This document shows positions 32,942-41,648 of a stretch of 44,637 bases of DNA, one piece after another. Location of the stretch: positions 1-44,637 of IMG/VR virus record IMGVR_UViG_3300032223_002574; one strand, 5' to 3'. This DNA is from a virus. Position 1 is the stretch's first letter. Each line of letters begins with the position of its first letter. The notes beneath the pieces were generated by a model that saw nothing but the letters and a program-made list of their open reading frames with translations, searched no databases and was not told the DNA's origin. A program made the translations under genes and the position numbers.

Positions 32942-35900
32942 CTATGAACCAATTTTGTGTACTATTGGCATTGTTTTACGCAAATCAAATAATAAAGGAT
33001 TTGATAAGGAATTCATAGAGTTATCATTAGTGGCAATTGCAAGTGAATTTTGAGTAAATAAATTATACCTATTTATAGCATCTTGTTGAGATACTCCGTT
33101 TTCCCATAAATTAATATAACCATAAGAGCTTTCTGAACCCGCAGCATAAAGATTTAAACCCAAGGTATCTACATAATATGTTTCAGCATTTGATACCCCA
33201 TTTAAATTAACAGTAGCATATCCATATACAGCATTGTATGGAGGAGTTGCGGATACCGTTATTGCTTGATCAACAGTAGTAAGAGTAATTGGTGTGCCCG
33301 TAGTACTGCTTATAAATGTTCCAGCCGAATCTTCCCAGTTTATTGATAATGAAGCAGTTCTTGTACCGTAGGAACTCAACATTCTAGAATTTGCAGAAAG
33401 AGTATGTATTGCTGGGTTTAAAGAACTAAATCTACCTGTTATTTGATTTTGTCCAATTATTGTTGGATTGGCTAAGTTAGGCATTATTATAAGAGTTGTA
33501 TTTGTTCCTGAAGTATAAGTTATAGTTGCATTTGTTGGATTATAAGATCCTGTAGCATCTCCAATTTTTGCAATTGTTAATGAACCAGACACGCTATCTG
33601 TTGCTGTCATTGTTGAAATTGTATAATTTTCTGTTGGAGAGACCCCTCCAAAATCAAATGTAATATATGCATAAGCAGCGGTTGCTGGTGCCACAGCTGC
33701 TAAGGACAATGTTTGGTTAGTTGTAGTTAATGTTGTTAGGGTGCCTGCAGATGCACTTAAAAATGTACCTGCTGAATTAACCCAATTAATTAAAATTTTT
33801 CCAGTTCTTGTTCCATAAGAACTGGCCATTTTAACAGCACCCGTTACAGTATATGTTCTTCCTACAGTAACAGCAAATCTTCCTGCAGTTTTGTTTTGTC
33901 CAGTAGTTGTTGGGTTGGCAAGATTTGGTGTTAGAATTGTAGTTGTACCAGAATTATAAGATATAGTAGTATTGTTTGGATTATATGAACCTGTAGCATC
34001 ACCAATTCCTGCTATTATTGGACTCGAAATAAGGCCGTTGATATACATATCAGTTGTATATGGTTTATCAAATAAAACGCAAATGTGTACAGGAGTATTA
34101 GCAGAAAAAGTAAATCTAGATATTTGATCTGTTACGCTTGATGCTGTTACAGAATTTGAAACATATAAACCATTGATGTAAATTGCAGAAATTGCTGAAT
34201 TATATGCTGCTGACCCAGTTGAATCTATATATAAATTGGGATATCCTGATGCACTTGTTACATCTCCAATAATAATATTTGAATTGGTAAAATTAGTATC
34301 TGGTCTATACCAAAAATCTATACCCGCTACATTTTTAGAATAAAGATTTGTAATTTTTGCATATCCTGGAACTGTTGCGTCATCTACGCTATATGGGAAT
34401 AATAATCCTAAATTTGGAGATCTAGTTTGAATGGGTTTTCCATGACTTTTTATTGTAAATGAAGAATTATTAATACTTTTAGAAACTGGTGTTAATAAAA
34501 AATATTCTCCTTCAGAATAAAAATTCATATTTTTATAAAAAGCAATTTCTAGATTATTAAAAGATTGAATAAGATCTGAATTATCAGATTTTACAATTCC
34601 AGTAACTCTAATTAGCATGTTACTTAATTTATTTGAAAAATTATATCCCGATATAAAACCGTCTTTTCTGGTAACGGTTTTCCAATTTGTTTCTTGATTT
34701 GTTATATTTGGATCATAAAATGAATATTCAACTAAAGCATTATTTGTTGAATTCCAACCAATTTTAGAACCCAAAATAGAATCCATAGATGTTAACGGTA
34801 TATTTGTTATCCAATAAGACATTTGATTAACAGCAAAAGATTGTGTAACATCAACTGGATAATAAGGATCTACATAATACTGAAAAGGAACAGCATATTT
34901 AATAATTCCACTCCACGGATAACCATTAGGATAATAATATCCATTTATATATTGATTTGTAAAATCATCAATATATAAATCACAAATTCCTAAATCTGTA
35001 AAACTGCTTGAATTAGCTTTAAGTAAATTTAAATCATTTCCATTATGATAAGATTGACCAATAGTTAAAATACTATTATTAGAAAAAATAATTGTTTTTG
35101 CATAAACTGCACTTTGAGTAGTTATATCAATAATAGATAAACTTTTAGGGTCTAGTGATGAAATTACAGTTAAAAGAATAGAGTTGTTTGCCATAGAAAC
35201 TGCTATTTTGTGATAATTTAAAGTATTGCTAGGTGTTACAGAAGCAAGAGTTGTTGTTGTACCGTTTAAAGTATCATAAAATTTTAAATTATATATTCCA
35301 TTTAATCTTTCAACAAATAAAGTAGAAGATCCATTAACATTGTTAATTGACCATATATACTCATCATCGTGAGTCAAACTTGATTCAGCAACAAGACTTA
35401 TTGTACATGGCATAGATGAAATTTTTCCAAAATCAGAAAAATCTAAGGCTGCTTTACCCCCATCCCATTCAATGCCACTAAAATCTGTTGGAACTGAAAG
35501 CACACTTGTTTTATCTATATTATTAAATAAAACTCTATTAATTTTTTTTGATTCAAGTCCCTGAGAAGTTATGTTTAAATTATATAAATTGGAATAATCT
35601 TGAAATCCTTTTCCATTAAAAATTTTACCATATTGAAAATTTTGAGGAGATTCTTCAAGGGCAAACATATATGTTCCATATTGCGTAGAAGATTTAATTG
35701 GTTTATTATCATACATTCCCCATTTAATATGATCATTTAATTGTCTTGATGTTAAAAGATAATCATAAAAAGCTAAATTAGAAATTAAAAAATATTGCCC
35801 TGGCTCTAAAGAAGTTACTGTTGGAGGAATTGTTGAAAAGTCATTATACGATCCAGCTATTCTAAAAATAAGATTTTGATAGTTATTTGAAATATTTGAA

Positions 35901-36658
35901 TCTTGAAATAGTCCGTCGCCAACATATGCAGAAATGCCAGTTTTTCCATTAACTGAAACGTTAATTGTTTTATTGCTATATGTTGCATAAATGTGTAAAG
36001 GAGTGTTTAAATCGGTAATTACGCAATAAGATTTTGCATATCCTCCTGATTTTTGCGGAACATAAAATTCAATACAATTTGTTTCTTGGTTATATAAAAT
36101 GGAAGCATAATTATAAAAATAATTACCTCCACTTACGGTAGTATAATATCCAATTGATAAAAGATATATTTTGGGATATGAAACAATACTATTTCTAAAT
36201 CCTATATCTGTTCTATAATTATTTGTAGAAAAATTATCATATTCTGTAAAGTCTAAAGATTGACCATCCATCCAATCAAATGATGTCCAAAATTCTGTTG
36301 ACCAAGTGTGGGGGTTTGAAGATGGGACAAAAACATCATAAATATTTTTAATTTCAATAGAAGAACTTGATGTAATTTTAGCTGAAGTTTTATTGCCCAT
36401 AACAATTGGACTTGAATATTCTATGCCTAAAATAGATGGGTTGTTGCTATAAGATGTAGAATCAACAACCCTTAAAGTATTTAAATAACCGTAAGTAAAC
36501 CCAGCATATTGATCATATAGATTACCCGCAGTATGATCATTACCTAATGTCCCGCCATATGTCGTATAAGCATTTTTTAAATTATAATATGTATAATCAG
36601 AATCAATTGGAAAATAACCTAGGGGGTTGTCCCTATTTACAGCATATAGATATGACAT
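32942..36658 (-). CDS. Large LamG-rich tail adhesin with tandem carbohydrate-binding-like repeats
   Basis: 1238 residues, Asn/Ser/Tyr-rich. At least three LamG/concanavalin-like regions are visible. The first (about 110-315) has NTPLHIYATYSNKTINVSVN and ISNLAFYDYLLTSRQLNDHI. The second (about 410-510) has LNYHKIAVSMANNSILLTVI. The third (about 770-885) has FSANTPVHICVLFDKPYTTD and MYINGLISSP, and its last strand appears only near residue 1180 (YINLWENGVSQQDAINRYNL). Between these lie two 147-residue repeats, each beginning GDATGSYNP. A glycan-binding or receptor-binding fibre role is likely. It lies between a tail fibre gene and the portal module, preceded by GGAGG. Confidence 0.75.
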   Translation of the reverse strand: MSYLYAVNRDNPLGYFPIDSDYTYYNLKNAYTTYGGTLGNDHTAGNLYDQYAGFTYGYLNTLRVVDSTSYSNNPSILGIEYSSPIVMGNKTSAKITSSSSIEIKNIYDVFVPSSNPHTWSTEFWTSFDWMDGQSLDFTEYDNFSTNNYRTDIGFRNSIVSYPKIYLLSIGYYTTVSGGNYFYNYASILYNQETNCIEFYVPQKSGGYAKSYCVITDLNTPLHIYATYSNKTINVSVNGKTGISAYVGDGLFQDSNISNNYQNLIFRIAGSYNDFSTIPPTVTSLEPGQYFLISNLAFYDYLLTSRQLNDHIKWGMYDNKPIKSSTQYGTYMFALEESPQNFQYGKIFNGKGFQDYSNLYNLNITSQGLESKKINRVLFNNIDKTSVLSVPTDFSGIEWDGGKAALDFSDFGKISSMPCTISLVAESSLTHDDEYIWSINNVNGSSTLFVERLNGIYNLKFYDTLNGTTTTLASVTPSNTLNYHKIAVSMANNSILLTVISSLDPKSLSIIDITTQSAVYAKTIIFSNNSILTIGQSYHNGNDLNLLKANSSSFTDLGICDLYIDDFTNQYINGYYYPNGYPWSGIIKYAVPFQYYVDPYYPVDVTQSFAVNQMSYWITNIPLTSMDSILGSKIGWNSTNNALVEYSFYDPNITNQETNWKTVTRKDGFISGYNFSNKLSNMLIRVTGIVKSDNSDLIQSFNNLEIAFYKNMNFYSEGEYFLLTPVSKSINNSSFTIKSHGKPIQTRSPNLGLLFPYSVDDATVPGYAKITNLYSKNVAGIDFWYRPDTNFTNSNIIIGDVTSASGYPNLYIDSTGSAAYNSAISAIYINGLYVSNSVTASSVTDQISRFTFSANTPVHICVLFDKPYTTDMYINGLISSPIIAGIGDATGSYNPNNTTISYNSGTTTILTPNLANPTTTGQNKTAGRFAVTVGRTYTVTGAVKMASSYGTRTGKILINWVNSAGTFLSASAGTLTTLTTTNQTLSLAAVAPATAAYAYITFDFGGVSPTENYTISTMTATDSVSGSLTIAKIGDATGSYNPTNATITYTSGTNTTLIIMPNLANPTIIGQNQITGRFSSLNPAIHTLSANSRMLSSYGTRTASLSINWEDSAGTFISSTTGTPITLTTVDQAITVSATPPYNAVYGYATVNLNGVSNAETYYVDTLGLNLYAAGSESSYGYINLWENGVSQQDAINRYNLFTQNSLAIATNDNSMNSLSNPLLFDLRKTMPIVHKIGS
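33130..34003 (-). repeat. Two 441-base tandem repeats inside the adhesin gene
   Basis: Two diverged copies, anchored at GDATGSYNP at 34003-33989 and 33562-33548 (exactly 441 bases apart, 147 residues). Both share NLANPT, GQN, GRF, SSYGTRT and INW..SAGTF landmarks. Each resembles a CBM4/9-like beta sandwich. Confidence 0.8.
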
Positions 36659-36672
36659 TGGTTAGCCTCCAA

Positions 36673-37392
36673 TTATTGTGCAAGTCTTGAAAGTCTCCAT
36701 GTCACTGCAGTTGTTGCTGCATCTGTTACTGTAACTTGAAGAATAGAATTTGAAGATAAATATGAAGCAATAACATTAACTCCAGACATAGCACCACCAA
36801 TTTCTGTTACACCGTATTCTTCAAAACTTACTAAACTCGATCCGTCTGTTACAACTCTAATTGTTGAAGCTCTAACTTTAGAACCTTGTCTCATATTTAA
36901 TAAATATTCAATTCCTATAAATGTATTAACTGCAATTGTATCAATTGTTATTGCTGTATTTGATCCAAGAGTTCCTGCTGTTTGCGTATATCCCGTACCA
37001 GTTCCACTACCAGTTCCAGCAGTTGGGCTTTGCCAAACTGGCACTCCTCCAGAAACTGCAAGGACATAACCATTAGTACCAATACCAAGTCTTACTGCTT
37101 GCGTTACGGCTGAACCATTTGCTCCAGCGTATATTATGTCTCCTTTTGTTGTAAAAGGAACAGCAAGAGTTATTTGAGCATCTGTATAATTTTTTGTAGC
37201 AGCATGAGATGTTGCCGTAGGATCACCAATTGTAATCTTTCCACTTGTTTCTCTATAAACAAGGGTATTTGCTACAGCTGTAGATGTAGATTTTGTATCA
37301 ATGGTATTTGCTAAACTATAAATATCGGATGGAACATCAACTGGATCAGTTGATAATGGATATGGAAAACCTTTGCTTGTTGTTGAACTCAT
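36673..37392 (-). CDS. Tail fibre protein
   Basis: 239 residues. The N-terminus GFPYPLSTDPVDVPSDIYSL is the common start of phage tail-fibre proteins. A shaft-like part carries TTKGDIIYAGANGSAVTQAV and LGIGTNGYVLAVSGGVPVW, which recurs in the 43195 fibre. A Gly/Thr linker (TAGTGSGTGTGYT) leads to a C-terminal beta head (EYLLNMRQGSKVRASTIRVV, then SILQVTVTDAATTAVTWRLS) typical of fibre tips. It lacks a ribosome site; its -10 ends seven bases before the ATG, so it is apparently leaderless. It follows the sulfation block and precedes the LamG adhesin. Confidence 0.8.
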   Translation of the reverse strand: MSSTTSKGFPYPLSTDPVDVPSDIYSLANTIDTKSTSTAVANTLVYRETSGKITIGDPTATSHAATKNYTDAQITLAVPFTTKGDIIYAGANGSAVTQAVRLGIGTNGYVLAVSGGVPVWQSPTAGTGSGTGTGYTQTAGTLGSNTAITIDTIAVNTFIGIEYLLNMRQGSKVRASTIRVVTDGSSLVSFEEYGVTEIGGAMSGVNVIASYLSSNSILQVTVTDAATTAVTWRLSRLAQ

Positions 37393-37432: not shown

Positions 37433-37666
37433 CTACTCTCTACCCCACTTTATCTTGTTCCAAATACGCTCATGTACGTAATATAAGAATATTTTAGTAA
37501 ATATTTCCATGCCAGAAATAGCTAAGGCAAGTTTAGCTTTTCCAGTAATTAAATAAGAAAGAATGAAGGTATCAATTGTGCCAGCTGTTCTCCATGTTAC
37601 CGCTTTTACAAATGATCTTCCATGAGATACCCACATAATAGGCTTTCTTTCTATTTGCTCAAACAT
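37433..37666 (-). CDS. DUF2061 membrane protein
   Basis: 77 residues from the ATG at 37666, which has GGAAGAAAG upstream; a TTG at 37744 would overlap the preceding gene by 47 bases and add a poorly fitting N-terminus. The pattern RSFVKAVTWRTAGTIDTFIL, LSYLITGKAKLALAISGMEI and TKIFLYYVHERIWNKIKWG is the DUF2061 signature. Two hydrophobic helices (about 28-42 and 46-64) should span the membrane. The function of DUF2061 is not established. I recall, without being able to check, that it often neighbours sulfate-activation genes in bacteria; here it directly follows the APS-kinase fusion gene, which fits. Confidence 0.85.
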   Translation of the reverse strand: MFEQIERKPIMWVSHGRSFVKAVTWRTAGTIDTFILSYLITGKAKLALAISGMEIFTKIFLYYVHERIWNKIKWGRE

Positions 37667-37697
37667 AATTCTTTCTTCCGCCTCTGATATTTTATTA

Positions 37698-38453
37698 TCA
37701 AATACCCATCTGCTTACGTTTTTCAGTTGCTGAAATAGCTTCAATGTCTGCTCCTAACGATACTTGTTCAATCTTATATCCTACATCACGCCCATATACA
37801 ATATTTGTAATATTTGGCAGCTTAAGAACCAAGGCGTCTACCATAACTGGATCTTGAGATATATAACCTTTTACTTGATCAAATGTTAATGGATCTTTTT
37901 CGCTAGTTTTATAAGTATCTCTTACTCCTAATAAGACTTGATCTGCCCTTTTACCCGCTTCTTCATATAAAGCGTGATGGCCTTCATGCCAAGGTTGGTA
38001 GCGACCAAGCATTAAAGTTGTTGGCTTCCTCCAGTCATGTAATTTAAAATCAATTATAGCAACTCTTGCAGCATCAGTATACTCAATCATATCATCAAAT
38101 ACTAAATCAACATTGGTTGGAAACTCCCACATTGCAGTTGTATCTGGAAAATCACGAACTGGTTTTCTATTCATCCATACAACTTTATCTGCTTTACCAA
38201 ATGCTGATCTTGTTTCTGATGTTGGATTAATAAAATCAACAACAACATTATAACCTTTATTTGCAAGAAGTCTTGATAAAGCACCCATACGGCGGGACTG
38301 TTCAATACGATCTTCTTTGCTAAATCCAAGATCTTTATTTAATTCTGCTCTTACATCATCAGCATTAATATGAATAGCATTAATTCTATCTGCTAATTCT
38401 TTTGCAAATGTTGTTTTGCCACTGCCTGGCAACCCTATAATTTGTATAATCAT
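37698..38453 (-). CDS. APS kinase-like domain fused to a small nucleotidyltransferase domain
   Basis: 251 residues. Residues 1-130 resemble adenylylsulfate kinase (CysC), which phosphorylates APS to PAPS. They carry P-loop GLPGSGKT (7-14), NADDVR (30-35, standing for the usual DGDxxR), DLGFSKEDRIEQSRR (41-55) and FINP (74-77, usually FISP). The usual C-terminal kinase segment is shortened. Residues 146-251 are a nucleotidyltransferase of the HxGH superfamily: GRYQPWHEGHHAL (150-162) and ISATEKRKQM (240-249). That pattern is closer to NMN adenylyltransferases than to normal ATP sulfurylases. The kinase-then-adenylyltransferase order equals that of animal PAPS synthase, but the second domain is much smaller. 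It lies between a glycosyltransferase and DUF2061. Confidence 0.85.
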   Translation of the reverse strand: MIIQIIGLPGSGKTTFAKELADRINAIHINADDVRAELNKDLGFSKEDRIEQSRRMGALSRLLANKGYNVVVDFINPTSETRSAFGKADKVVWMNRKPVRDFPDTTAMWEFPTNVDLVFDDMIEYTDAARVAIIDFKLHDWRKPTTLMLGRYQPWHEGHHALYEEAGKRADQVLLGVRDTYKTSEKDPLTFDQVKGYISQDPVMVDALVLKLPNITNIVYGRDVGYKIEQVSLGADIEAISATEKRKQMGI

Positions 38454-38456
38454 CTA

Positions 38457-39107
38457 TTAAATATCTCCTTTTTGCCACATCTTATATCCATATTTATGCC
38501 AATCTTTAAAACTACCGAGATGAGTTATTGCTCCATTATGAAACAATTCCCAATCTTTACCCTTATAAATATAAATATTATTTACTCCAGAAGATACGGA
38601 ATCCTGAATAGCTCTTGTCCATATATGAACTCCTGTCATGTCATGAACAAAATTTTTATTTGAATAATCTGGATTTTCAAATTCTTTTTTTATATAATCA
38701 AGAACTTTGTTTAATACTGGATGTTCTGGACAAGAAGCAAATGCTAATTGTGCATAATTTATTCCATCATCATCTTCACAAACTATCATATCACAATTTA
38801 TTTTAAGCCATGATTCAATTGGTTGGTTACATATAGTATCAAGATCTGCATAAACACCGCCATATTTATTTACTACTAAATATCTCCAAATGTCCCCACG
38901 CATGACACCAATTGGACAACTGTTCCAAATTGAAAGCCAGTCCTCACCGTATTCGTGAAGTATAAAAGCAGACGCTTCTTCATCATCCATATAAATATAT
39001 TTATATTCTGGATTAAAATCTTTCCAGGTTTGAGCTGCCTTTTTTATTATTTCTGGCAATGAATTAAATGAGTCTTTATATGTTTGCCAAATTATTTTAG
39101 GAATCAT
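38457..39107 (-). CDS. Glycosyltransferase, GT32/OCH1-like
   Basis: 216 residues. Starts MIPKIIWQTYKD, the usual opening of sugar transferases with a DxD motif of this class. The donor-binding region is GVMRGDIWRYLVVNKYGGVY (68-86) followed by ADLDT with D88 and D90 (DxD). These bind a nucleotide-sugar through a metal ion. No membrane segment or signal peptide is seen, so it should act in the cytoplasm. It overlaps the sulfotransferase stop region by four bases (ATGA), so both proteins are made together. The acceptor is unknown; a sugar added here could be the substrate of the sulfotransferase. Confidence 0.87.
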   Translation of the reverse strand: MIPKIIWQTYKDSFNSLPEIIKKAAQTWKDFNPEYKYIYMDDEEASAFILHEYGEDWLSIWNSCPIGVMRGDIWRYLVVNKYGGVYADLDTICNQPIESWLKINCDMIVCEDDDGINYAQLAFASCPEHPVLNKVLDYIKKEFENPDYSNKNFVHDMTGVHIWTRAIQDSVSSGVNNIYIYKGKDWELFHNGAITHLGSFKDWHKYGYKMWQKGDI

Positions 39108-39757
39108 TTTGCTTTTTTTAACATGATATAATCATCTTTAAAATGATGGTGTATTAAATCTTTTGTTGAATCTTTTAATTCAATACCTTCAGATTTTTTA
39201 GTTTTATTAATTATTGGCAAATTAACTTTATCTGATATTCCTATTTTATTTAATATTATTGGCCAAGTGTTTTGAATATTTTCTATATTATACAAATCAA
39301 TACTATTATCATTATCTAATCTTACAGATTGTGGAATTGTTGGCTCATACCCACCTTCTATAGACTTTATAATAAATTTATCTAAACCTAATTTTGTTAA
39401 ATTATACATAGGATAGGTATTTTCTTCTTGCCATCGGTATTCTTTTACATAATAATACAAAGAAATCATTATTTTTTCTGGATCTCTTACAGTTGAAAAC
39501 TTATACATTGAATCCCATCTTGACCCTATTTCTTGTTTTATTCTTTTTACATCAGAATGTTTTAATAAACCTTTAGAGTTAAAATATTCTTTACCAAAAT
39601 GTTTTATATACAACTCTTCCATTTCATTGCCGAAAGTCCATCCGCCAAATATAAAATCATTCCAATTTAAATATGGAGTTAAAGCTTCTTCTATGGAAGT
39701 TCCCCCAGTTCTATCGCTATGAATAAATATAAAATTTTTTGAATAACTTAAGATCAT
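39104..39757 (-). CDS. Sulfotransferase family protein (PAPS-dependent type)
   Basis: 217 residues. Transfers sulfate from PAPS to an acceptor, usually a sugar hydroxyl. The 5'-phosphosulfate loop is at residues 9-22 (FIFIHSDRTGGTSIE); the family consensus is PKTGGTS, and here Pro-Lys is replaced by Asp15-Arg16. The 3'-phosphate motif is FSTVRDPEKIMISLYY (R91, S99). KHSDVKRIKQEIG (66-78) with H67 is the family's usual preceding helix. The length is near that of short Sulfotransfer_2-type enzymes. There is no signal peptide or membrane segment. Operon neighbours are the glycosyltransferase (4-base overlap) and APS kinase fusion, which could supply both acceptor and donor. Alternative: a PAPS-binding protein with lost or changed activity. 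Confidence 0.8.
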   Translation of the reverse strand: MILSYSKNFIFIHSDRTGGTSIEEALTPYLNWNDFIFGGWTFGNEMEELYIKHFGKEYFNSKGLLKHSDVKRIKQEIGSRWDSMYKFSTVRDPEKIMISLYYYVKEYRWQEENTYPMYNLTKLGLDKFIIKSIEGGYEPTIPQSVRLDNDNSIDLYNIENIQNTWPIILNKIGISDKVNLPIINKTKKSEGIELKDSTKDLIHHHFKDDYIMLKKAK

Positions 39758-39764
39758 AAATATT

Positions 39765-40250
39765 TTATTCTTTTAATCTTGGAAAATCAAAATAAAAATT
39801 TTGTTTTAATGTTTCGTAAAACCCATACTCAAATTCATTGTCTTTTGTTTGTCGCATTCTTGGACAAAATATCCTGGCTTGTTTCATACATTTTATATGA
39901 AAAGGATAATTATCTGAAAAAACATTTGGGCCTTCTTTAGTAGCCGTTCCTATTAAAGTTGCCCACCTTATACAATTATCATTTTTTTTAAAACTGATGC
40001 CACAATAAGCACAAATACCGTTTATATAAACAGATTCTTCATTTTTTAATAATAAAATAAATGGTTTAATTTCATCAAAAATTGGTTCAGATTGCCACGG
40101 GACTGGTATTCTTTTGTGTAAATATAATTTTGTTTCCATAATAAGTCTTTTAAAAGTTGGATTTTTTCTTATATTTAATGGAAGATCAACATAAGGTCTG
40201 GGTAAACCTAAGATGTCTTTAGTATTTTGAGACCATTTAACACTATGCAT
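39765..40250 (-). CDS. Cysteine/histidine-rich hypothetical protein
   Basis: 161 residues from the ATG at 40250, with GGAAAAG upstream; it overlaps the end of the preceding gene by eight bases. A longer reading to 40355 would lie inside that gene. A zinc-finger-like set is visible in the second half: CAYC, then HIKC and a further cysteine (FCPRM). The N-terminal half has proline-rich and basic stretches (LGLPRPYVDLPLNIRK; LHKRIPVPW). No family recognised. It is encoded between the two paralogous proteins and the sulfotransferase, so it may belong to the same pathway. Confidence 0.7.
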   Translation of the reverse strand: MHSVKWSQNTKDILGLPRPYVDLPLNIRKNPTFKRLIMETKLYLHKRIPVPWQSEPIFDEIKPFILLLKNEESVYINGICAYCGISFKKNDNCIRWATLIGTATKEGPNVFSDNYPFHIKCMKQARIFCPRMRQTKDNEFEYGFYETLKQNFYFDFPRLKE

Positions 40251-40944
40251 AATTTTTTCTTTTCCAAATATTTTTTTTATACCACCCGCTTGAAACTGAA
40301 CAACTTTGAGTATATGCATCATTAGCTTCTTTTGATAAATTTTCATTAAATTCACTTTGCCAGCTTTCAGTTTTAAATAATATTATTTGTGCAAAAGGTG
40401 TTCCTTTAGGAATTACACCTTCAAATGTTTTATTAAAAAATACTGGAACGCTTCCATTATGATACATACAAAATTCACCATCAATAACTGCACTTAATGT
40501 TTGAAATGGTAAATCAAATCTGTTTAAAGGATGAGTAAATAACATACTATATCCTTTTGGTATTTTTAATGATATTTTGGTCATCCAGGCAAAATGCAAA
40601 TTTGAAAAACCTTCAGGCGTTGGAAGAGTTTTATTTGTATAATCATTTTCTCTTAATTGTAAAAAAACATCTTTAAGTTCTTCTCTCCAAGTTATTGCTG
40701 GGCCAATTTCTGTTTGCTCCACAGCAATATCTACTGGAGTAGTTAACATATATCCAGTTGCAAAACTTTCAAAAAATGGTTGACAAAGTTTAAATCCAGG
40801 GCGAGTGGGGAATCTTTTTATTTTTTTTTCGTCTTCATCTAATCTTGTTCCATTTTTATACCAATCTGGTATAAAGTTTTTTGCTGAACCAATTCCGCCA
40901 TACGATTTATTTGTAACAAAATATTTTAATATATTTTTTTTCAT
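40243..40944 (-). CDS. Hypothetical protein, paralog of the 41648 gene (copy B)
   Basis: 233 residues, unknown function. Shares with its upstream neighbour an ordered set of motifs: FIPDWYKNG (24-32), ATGYMLTTPVDIAV (62-75), a central Trp-containing segment, KGYSMLFTHPLNRFDLPF (about 131-148), and FEGVIPKGTPFAQIILFKTE (about 174-193) followed by SW. The fold looks all-beta. I recall similar proteins in cyanophages and other aquatic phages, without a known role. It is the downstream copy of an apparent tandem duplication, separated by only eight bases. Confidence 0.75.
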   Translation of the reverse strand: MKKNILKYFVTNKSYGGIGSAKNFIPDWYKNGTRLDEDEKKIKRFPTRPGFKLCQPFFESFATGYMLTTPVDIAVEQTEIGPAITWREELKDVFLQLRENDYTNKTLPTPEGFSNLHFAWMTKISLKIPKGYSMLFTHPLNRFDLPFQTLSAVIDGEFCMYHNGSVPVFFNKTFEGVIPKGTPFAQIILFKTESWQSEFNENLSKEANDAYTQSCSVSSGWYKKNIWKRKNYA

Positions 40945-40952
40945 CTAATACC

Positions 40953-41648
40953 CTATCTGTAAGTTTTTTTAGACCAAAACATTGTTTTATATCTATTAAA
41001 AAATTGACTATTTAAAAATAATGAATTTTTTTTAATTTCTTCTTTATTATTTTCATTTCCAAAATTCATAACCCAAGATTCTCTTTTAAAAGGTATAACT
41101 TGTACCATTGGTGTTCCTGCAGGAATTATTCCTTCAAATTTTGTATCATTTAAAAAAAATGGAAGATTAACTGGAGAAAAATAATTGTCTGTATCAACAA
41201 TTCCTTCTAAAATAGAAAAATATAAATTGCCATCATGTACGGGTGGAATAAACAAACATGAATATCCAGGTTCAGTTTTTATAGCCCATGGATTATTCCA
41301 CTTGGGCAACTTTGATAATTCTTTTCTTTTTGGGTGGTATGGAGCTTGTAAAGCACTGTGCCATCCGATTGATTCGTTATTCGCAAATAATTCTTGTTCG
41401 CCTTTTTCATTTTTTTTAACAAATATATCTTGATGTGTAGGAATAATATATCCTGATGTTATAGCATCAAAAACAGGAATACATTTTTTTATTGTTCCCA
41501 TTGGTTGTAAATCTATAAATATATCTTTTTTTCCATTTATATAAGAATCAGTTTTTTTATACCAATTTGGTAAAAATTCAGAAGATGGTTTTGGCAAATA
41601 TTGATCTGAAATATCTAATATTTTAGTAAATATTATTTTTTTAGTCAT
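40953..41648 (-). CDS. Hypothetical protein, paralog of the 40944 gene (copy A)
   Basis: 231 residues, unknown function. Motifs in order: FLPNWYKKT, ITSGYIIPTHQDIFV, NPWAIKTEPGYSCLFIPP, GIVDTDNYFSPVNLPFFL and FEGIIPAGTPMVQVIPFKRE followed by SW. This copy looks nearer to the family consensus I remember (IVDTDNY, IIPAGTP, VIPFKRESW). There are no membrane segments or signal peptide and no clear catalytic triad. It lies 32 bases after a long AT palindrome and starts the accessory block that ends with the sulfation genes. Confidence 0.75.
   Translation of the reverse strand: MTKKIIFTKILDISDQYLPKPSSEFLPNWYKKTDSYINGKKDIFIDLQPMGTIKKCIPVFDAITSGYIIPTHQDIFVKKNEKGEQELFANNESIGWHSALQAPYHPKRKELSKLPKWNNPWAIKTEPGYSCLFIPPVHDGNLYFSILEGIVDTDNYFSPVNLPFFLNDTKFEGIIPAGTPMVQVIPFKRESWVMNFGNENNKEEIKKNSLFLNSQFFNRYKTMFWSKKTYR

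Follow-up and report, generated by a model that had tools for sequence, protein, structure and literature searches.

The IMG/VR virus record analysed here as a single window (the whole stretch of 44,637 bases) carries a structural module with portal, protease, major head protein and tape measure genes, and belongs to a freshwater-type phage. Four closely packed ORFs, all on the minus strand and with fibre genes on both sides, are transcribed in the order sulfotransferase (39757-39104), GT32-like glycosyltransferase (39107-38457), kinase-nucleotidyltransferase (NTase) fusion (38453-37698) and DUF2061 protein (37744-37433). The initial annotation had read these as four adjacent, tightly coupled genes, and this was borne out: the sulfotransferase and GT32 genes overlap by 4 nt, the GT32 and kinase-NTase genes are separated by 3 nt, and the kinase-NTase and DUF2061 genes overlap by 47 nt if the TTG start of the latter is used. 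The features of the region are:

39104-39757, minus strand: sulfotransferase-family protein of 217 aa (phrog_3347), with the motifs FIHSDRTGGTS and VRDPEKIMIS
38457-39107, minus strand: GT32-like glycosyltransferase of 216 aa with a DXD motif (PF04488, PDB 9n3s)
38037-38453, minus strand: APS-kinase-like domain, with a short lid, of the 251-aa fusion protein (PF01583, AlphaFold2 model)
37698-38036, minus strand: NMNAT-like nucleotidyltransferase domain of the fusion protein, residues 140-251 (NMN adenylyltransferase profile match, motifs)
37433-37744, minus strand: small DUF2061 membrane protein, 'DTF' subfamily (PF09834)
36673-37392, minus strand: flanking fibre-like structural protein (phrog_26941 tail protein, 5e-5; the counterpart in locus L096 is 79% identical)
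32942-36658, minus strand: flanking putative adhesin/fibre of 1238 aa (same place in L096, 73% identical)
39765-41648, minus strand: three upstream genes (39765-40355, 40243-40944 and 40953-41648; same order in L096)

The proposed site between fibre genes agrees with the PHROG matches of the flanks, which are phage structural genes. The 1238-aa neighbour had also been labelled a LamG adhesin; that label was left unconfirmed, as the protein gave no Pfam match at E<0.1 and no PHROG match at E<0.01. Upstream of the sulfotransferase gene, 40243-40944 and 40953-41648 code for tandem phrog_7084 proteins, and this pair is also present in L096.

The identities assigned to the four gene products were upheld by profile searches, the sulfotransferase being weak by Pfam. 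The DUF2061 protein matched PF09834 (5e-20, 72 bits against a cut-off of 23.1). The GT32-like protein matched PF04488 over its DXD-containing sugar-binding region (1.6e-15, 58.0 bits against a cut-off of 23), as well as the alpha-1,6-mannosyltransferase of PDB entry 9n3s (9e-11). The sulfotransferase matched phrog_3347, 'Galactose-3-O-sulfotransferase', over its full length (4.6e-10), and PF03567 with an E-value of 0.0087 and 16.7 bits, which is under the 22-bit cut-off. Its homologue in L096, which is 54% identical, scored 26.2 bits with PF03567 and thus passed this cut-off. On inspection of the sequence, FIHSDRTGGTS and VRDPEKIMIS match the PAPS-binding 5′-PSB and 3′-PB motifs, respectively. 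A single-sequence scan of IMG/VR with the window sulfotransferase returned no close relatives, and such scans miss distant ones, like that of L096.

The fusion protein matched phrog_10255 ('kinase') over its full length (1e-66). Its N-terminal half was matched by the APS kinase family PF01583 (4e-17, 63 bits against a cut-off of 21), over residues 2-84 only, and the NCBIfam apsK model TIGR00455 gave 63 bits, below its cut-off of 138.7. Structure prediction, which the initial annotation had named as a check, placed APS kinases first for this domain. In the AlphaFold2 model (mean pLDDT 85.8), residues 1 to about 143 are predicted to adopt an APS kinase fold. When the modelled domain was compared with known structures by VIA, the best match was the APS kinase 7yq0 (Z 18.6, rmsd 1.9, 139 aligned residues), and the best 30 entries were all chains of APS kinase, PAPS synthase or ATP sulfurylase with an APS-kinase or APS-kinase-like domain. 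Gluconate kinase ranked behind the APS kinases, with a Z of 15.6. The alignment of window-type kinase copies revealed that DxxR, DLGF, R49 and RR, which we take to be the substrate-side residues of APS kinases, are kept. The lid segment (the KGLYkkA region) is shortened, the family alignment being short between approximately residues 94 and 102. With its short lid and a score below the NCBIfam apsK cut-off, the kinase is not a standard CysC. The Campylobacter-type cytidine diphosphoramidate kinase is another APS-kinase-like enzyme, and a conceivable alternative.

The C-terminal domain was matched by PF01467 over residues 148-182 (8e-5). Searched against the PDB, its profile retrieved the NMN adenylyltransferases 2qjt (1.8e-9) and 1f9a (7.5e-9), with the alignment restricted to the ATP-binding half. 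The curated NMNAT models remained below their cut-offs (25.8 of 127 bits for NF002243, and 20.3 of 181 bits for TIGR01527). The window copy carries the motifs GRYQPWHEGH, YGRDVGY and ISATEKR; in the form GRxQPxHxGH, YGRxVGY and ISATxxR they are invariant across phage and bacterial copies, and no other part of the family is as well conserved. The Sat family PF01747 was absent from the Pfam matches of the window fusion and of the NTase of the bacterial locus L244, and hhalign of the NTase with a Sat protein gave a probability of 7.6%, over the ISxTxxR tail only. Foldseek and VIA comparisons with the NTase domain alone retrieved generic cytidylyl- and adenylyltransferases with low scores (best Z 8.7), which did not discriminate the substrate.

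Relatives of the window-type fusion were found in at least 596 IMG/VR stretches, and a T4-type version in at least 425. In the window-type set, which includes loci fetched via DUF2061, 95 of 104 loci have the DUF2061 gene no more than 1.2 kb downstream of the fusion; among the loci fetched with the fusion only, the figure is 76 of 80. Of the T4-type loci, only 17 of 80 have DUF2061 next to the fusion. The full order sulfotransferase-GT32-fusion-DUF2061 between fibre genes recurs in L096 alone, with a second sulfotransferase inserted, and GT32 is found beside the fusion only in this closest relative (47% identical copy). Hence the proposed four-gene cassette is not conserved as a whole: the kinase-NTase/DUF2061 pair stands as the conserved core, GT32 is lineage-specific and the sulfotransferases are varied add-ons. 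In five loci (L049, L057, L100, L101 and L102) a sulfotransferase-like ORF lies directly behind DUF2061, and these sequences differ from each other.

The fusion also occurs in cultured Casjensviridae phages and in Stenotrophomonas phage DLP_6 (L082-L086), without an adjoining DUF2061 or sulfotransferase gene. No PF03567 match was obtained in the cultured Casjensviridae genomes, and DLP_6 has a PF03567 gene elsewhere in its genome. In the cultured Casjensviridae the fusion follows a gene that is annotated in one of these phages as NADAR-type/riboflavin biosynthesis (L083:6553-6996), with MazG nearby. The recorded host of one of these phages (L082, OR548257.1) is the actinobacterium Clavibacter, yet the phage is placed in the Casjensviridae with relatives on Xanthomonadaceae; the recorded host may be worth verifying.

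The association of the fusion with sulfotransferases was quantified in two ways. PF03567 matches were present in 12 of 53 fusion-bearing viral records (11 of 50 records with the fusion, a group that contains the window, plus 1 of the 3 fusion carriers among 28 portal-fetched records), and in none of 25 portal relatives without the fusion (p=0.006; some records are near duplicates, and without two of them p=0.013). A motif scan near the fusion detected sulfotransferase-like ORFs at 19 of 117 window-type loci and at none of 80 portal controls (p=3e-5), with patterns that were written after some of the counted loci had been seen and with several near-duplicate records in the count. At T4-type loci the same scan was positive in 6 of 80, and sub-threshold PF00685/PF13469 matches mark L293 as a seventh (∼7/80). 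A purpose-built sulfotransferase HMM found 22 of 104 loci; this count was kept out of the statistics because some of these loci had served to train the HMM. In a survey of OM43 phages, the role of phage sulfotransferases was stated to be unclear (PMC10580990).

The relatives in bacteria link the same domains to sulfate activation. In Rhizobium sp. BK376 a single chromosomal ORF of 555 aa (L088:5128-6792) comprises a sulfotransferase, an APS-kinase and an NTase domain, and its sulfotransferase domain matches PF03567 with 31.3 bits (cut-off 22). In five of six genomes of one alphaproteobacterial family (G395 and G468-G471; L243-L247), the kinase and the NTase are encoded by individual genes, the last two of an operon with the order CbiX/sirB, SUMT (cobA), sulfite reductase (cysI), CysH (PAPS_reduct), DUF2061, kinase and NTase (genes assigned with Pfam in L244; the first gene is lost at the contig end in L245). 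The CysH of this operon carries the CC...CxxC cysteines, presumably typical of reductases that accept APS, and APS must therefore come from some source. In G468-G471, which are small genomes and may be incomplete, PF01507 matched the operon CysH only, so that no CysD was seen, and PF01747 (Sat) was not seen either. Two PF01507 matches were obtained in the Rhizobium genome (G001), the number that a CysH together with a CysD would give. In G395 a canonical Sat is encoded on a different contig (L255:1796-2857, G395:C19), near NeuB-like and sugar-biosynthesis-like genes. A fused kinase-NTase also lies beside an AMP-ligase-like gene and outside any cys operon in G821 (L256:8355-9170). The fusion or the NTase was detected in 1 of 298 Rhizobiaceae and 2 of 398 Pseudomonadota genomes, and the family is therefore rare in bacteria. 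With the Rhizobium kinase-NTase as the query, no match was obtained in viral contigs.

DUF2061 itself is tied to sulfate activation in bacteria, where it is fused to the C-terminus of a CysN-CysC protein (L224:2575-5124) and of a CysN protein (L225:4639-5781). These two copies, the operon copy and that of G402 are the DUF2061 members of our sample closest to that of the window (the 'DTF' type), and three of these four bacterial members have a sulfate-activation context. Other DUF2061 subfamilies had no cys genes within the short flanks examined. Frequently there are two DUF2061 genes side by side, or two such domains in one protein (L018, L038, L045, L057, L119-L121, L211 and L208), which might suggest a membrane protein of paired topology. 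Other phages (L116-L121) have DUF2061 but not the fusion, with MazG-like, QueE-like and exonuclease-like genes as its neighbours. We found no characterised DUF2061 protein in the open-access literature; four papers of the literature searched name DUF2061, two of them in tables of iron-response genes.

Taken together, the idea that PAPS is made and then used for sulfation, with which the initial annotation had started, is supported, more by evidence from outside the window than by the window itself. The placement of the fusion in sulfate activation linked to sulfotransferases draws on the Rhizobium single ORF, the cys operons and both enrichments; that DUF2061 is part of the set is indicated by its pairing with the fusion, by the CysN and CysN-CysC fusions and by the operon. 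As judged from sequence, it is probable that the fusion is a phage PAPS synthase of new domain make-up, supplying PAPS for variable sulfotransferases. Because the four operon genomes show neither CysD nor Sat, the strongest candidate for their missing ATP sulfurylase is the NTase, and we lean slightly towards the NTase being a previously unrecognised, NMNAT-like class of this enzyme, of which no description was found in the open-access literature. If so, sulfate and ATP could be turned into PAPS with no need for host enzymes, a possibility that the initial annotation had not raised. With similar, guarded preference we propose that in some bacteria the NTase, the short-lid APS kinase and DUF2061 may constitute the sole sulfate activation, and that the fused form in phages would be a self-sufficient PAPS synthase serving diverse sulfotransferases in the course of infection.

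We infer the catalytic activities, the role of DUF2061 and the sulfated product as follows. The C-terminal NMNAT-like domain would join sulfate to ATP to yield APS, which would make it an ATP sulfurylase of a new kind. The N-terminal kinase domain would phosphorylate APS to PAPS, so that the protein would be a compact PAPS synthase. DUF2061 would be its membrane partner, which may anchor the fusion protein or help sulfate to reach it. The sulfotransferase would then use PAPS on an acceptor; in this phage the acceptor is probably a glycan on which the neighbouring GT32 enzyme acts. A glycan acceptor is plausible, not proved, because of the site between fibre genes and the presence of the GT32 gene. 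The virion fibre or the host surface as the target, and superinfection exclusion as the purpose, are guesses.

An APS kinase-like enzyme that uses host-made APS is an unlikely alternative. The NTase would then do other work, e.g., activate another acid or phosphate, and sulfation would follow all the same, although in dependence on the host CysDN or Sat. The kinase half is indeed the clearer assignment, the NTase matches NMN adenylyltransferases and not Sat, and the Rhizobium genome with the triple fusion contains a further PF01507 gene that probably encodes a CysD of its own. However, both domains travel together and are the sole ATP sulfurylase candidates found in the four operon genomes, and the NTase motifs are better conserved than any other part of the family. 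Less probable is that the fusion is an auxiliary gene of assimilatory sulfate reduction that boosts cysteine, with the sulfotransferase nearby by coincidence. This is the usual reading of phage 'cysC': the known cysC and cysH genes of freshwater phages, transcribed in Rotsee Lake, are so interpreted (PMC10914622), and the bacterial homologues do lie in assimilatory operons. Nevertheless, a CysH profile derived from five bacterial sequences detected no CysH beside the fusion at any of 184 viral copies; sulfotransferases are enriched there instead, and one is fused to the kinase in Rhizobium. Since no CysH was found near the phage fusions, use by the phage in sulfation is likelier than use in reduction.

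It is similarly improbable, and slightly more so, that the fusion is a salvage enzyme of the NAD type, i.e., a NadR-like kinase plus NMN adenylyltransferase that perhaps restores NAD during NAD-depleting phage defence. The homology of the NTase to NadM/NMNAT and the NADAR-annotated neighbour in one cultured Casjensviridae phage are in line with such a role, but the kinase domain resembles APS kinase and not ribosylnicotinamide kinase, the NMNAT alignment ends before the second half of that enzyme, and neither the location in cys operons nor the fusion to a sulfotransferase fits it. Finally, unrelated cargo gathered at a variable site close to fibre genes, as the confinement of GT32 to the closest relative and the diverse neighbours in other phages might suggest, is very unlikely given the frequency of the kinase-NTase/DUF2061 pairing (95/104) and the bacterial fusions.

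To our knowledge, the known ATP sulfurylases are of two types, Sat and CysDN. If the NTase is an ATP sulfurylase, it would be a third type, small and NMNAT-like, and would account for the first step of sulfate assimilation where some streamlined bacteria seem to lack it; DUF2061 would gain a context, a new reading of the phage genes counted as 'cysC' would be suggested, and phage-driven sulfation would become a testable idea.

Known PAPS synthases (animal PAPSS, bacterial CysN-CysC and Sat-APSK) likewise join an APS kinase to an adenylyltransferase or its partner and are linked to sulfotransferases, and in animal PAPSS the kinase precedes the adenylyltransferase, as it does in the window fusion. 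The latter differs from them in its size (∼250 aa), in an adenylyltransferase that is NMNAT-like and not of the Sat or CysDN type, and in the short lid of its kinase. The Bacillus subtilis cysH operon has the order cysH-cysP-sat-cysC-ylnD-ylnE-ylnF. The alphaproteobacterial operon shares with it CysH, SUMT, SirB and an APS kinase-like gene, but lacks CysP and Sat, and has DUF2061 and the NMNAT-like NTase instead. NadR and NadM share the HxGH nucleotidyltransferase homology, and NadR also combines a kinase and an NTase in one chain; in the window fusion, however, the kinase is of another family, the domain order is reversed and the second half of NMNAT is unaligned. PHROG 10255, which the fusion matches over its full length, stops at the label 'kinase', without a link to sulfate. 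The phage cysC genes of PMC10914622 are also APS kinase-like and from freshwater phages; the available parts of that account speak of neither a fused NTase nor a DUF2061 partner nor a link to sulfotransferases, and the kinase-NTase family may be among the genes that it describes.
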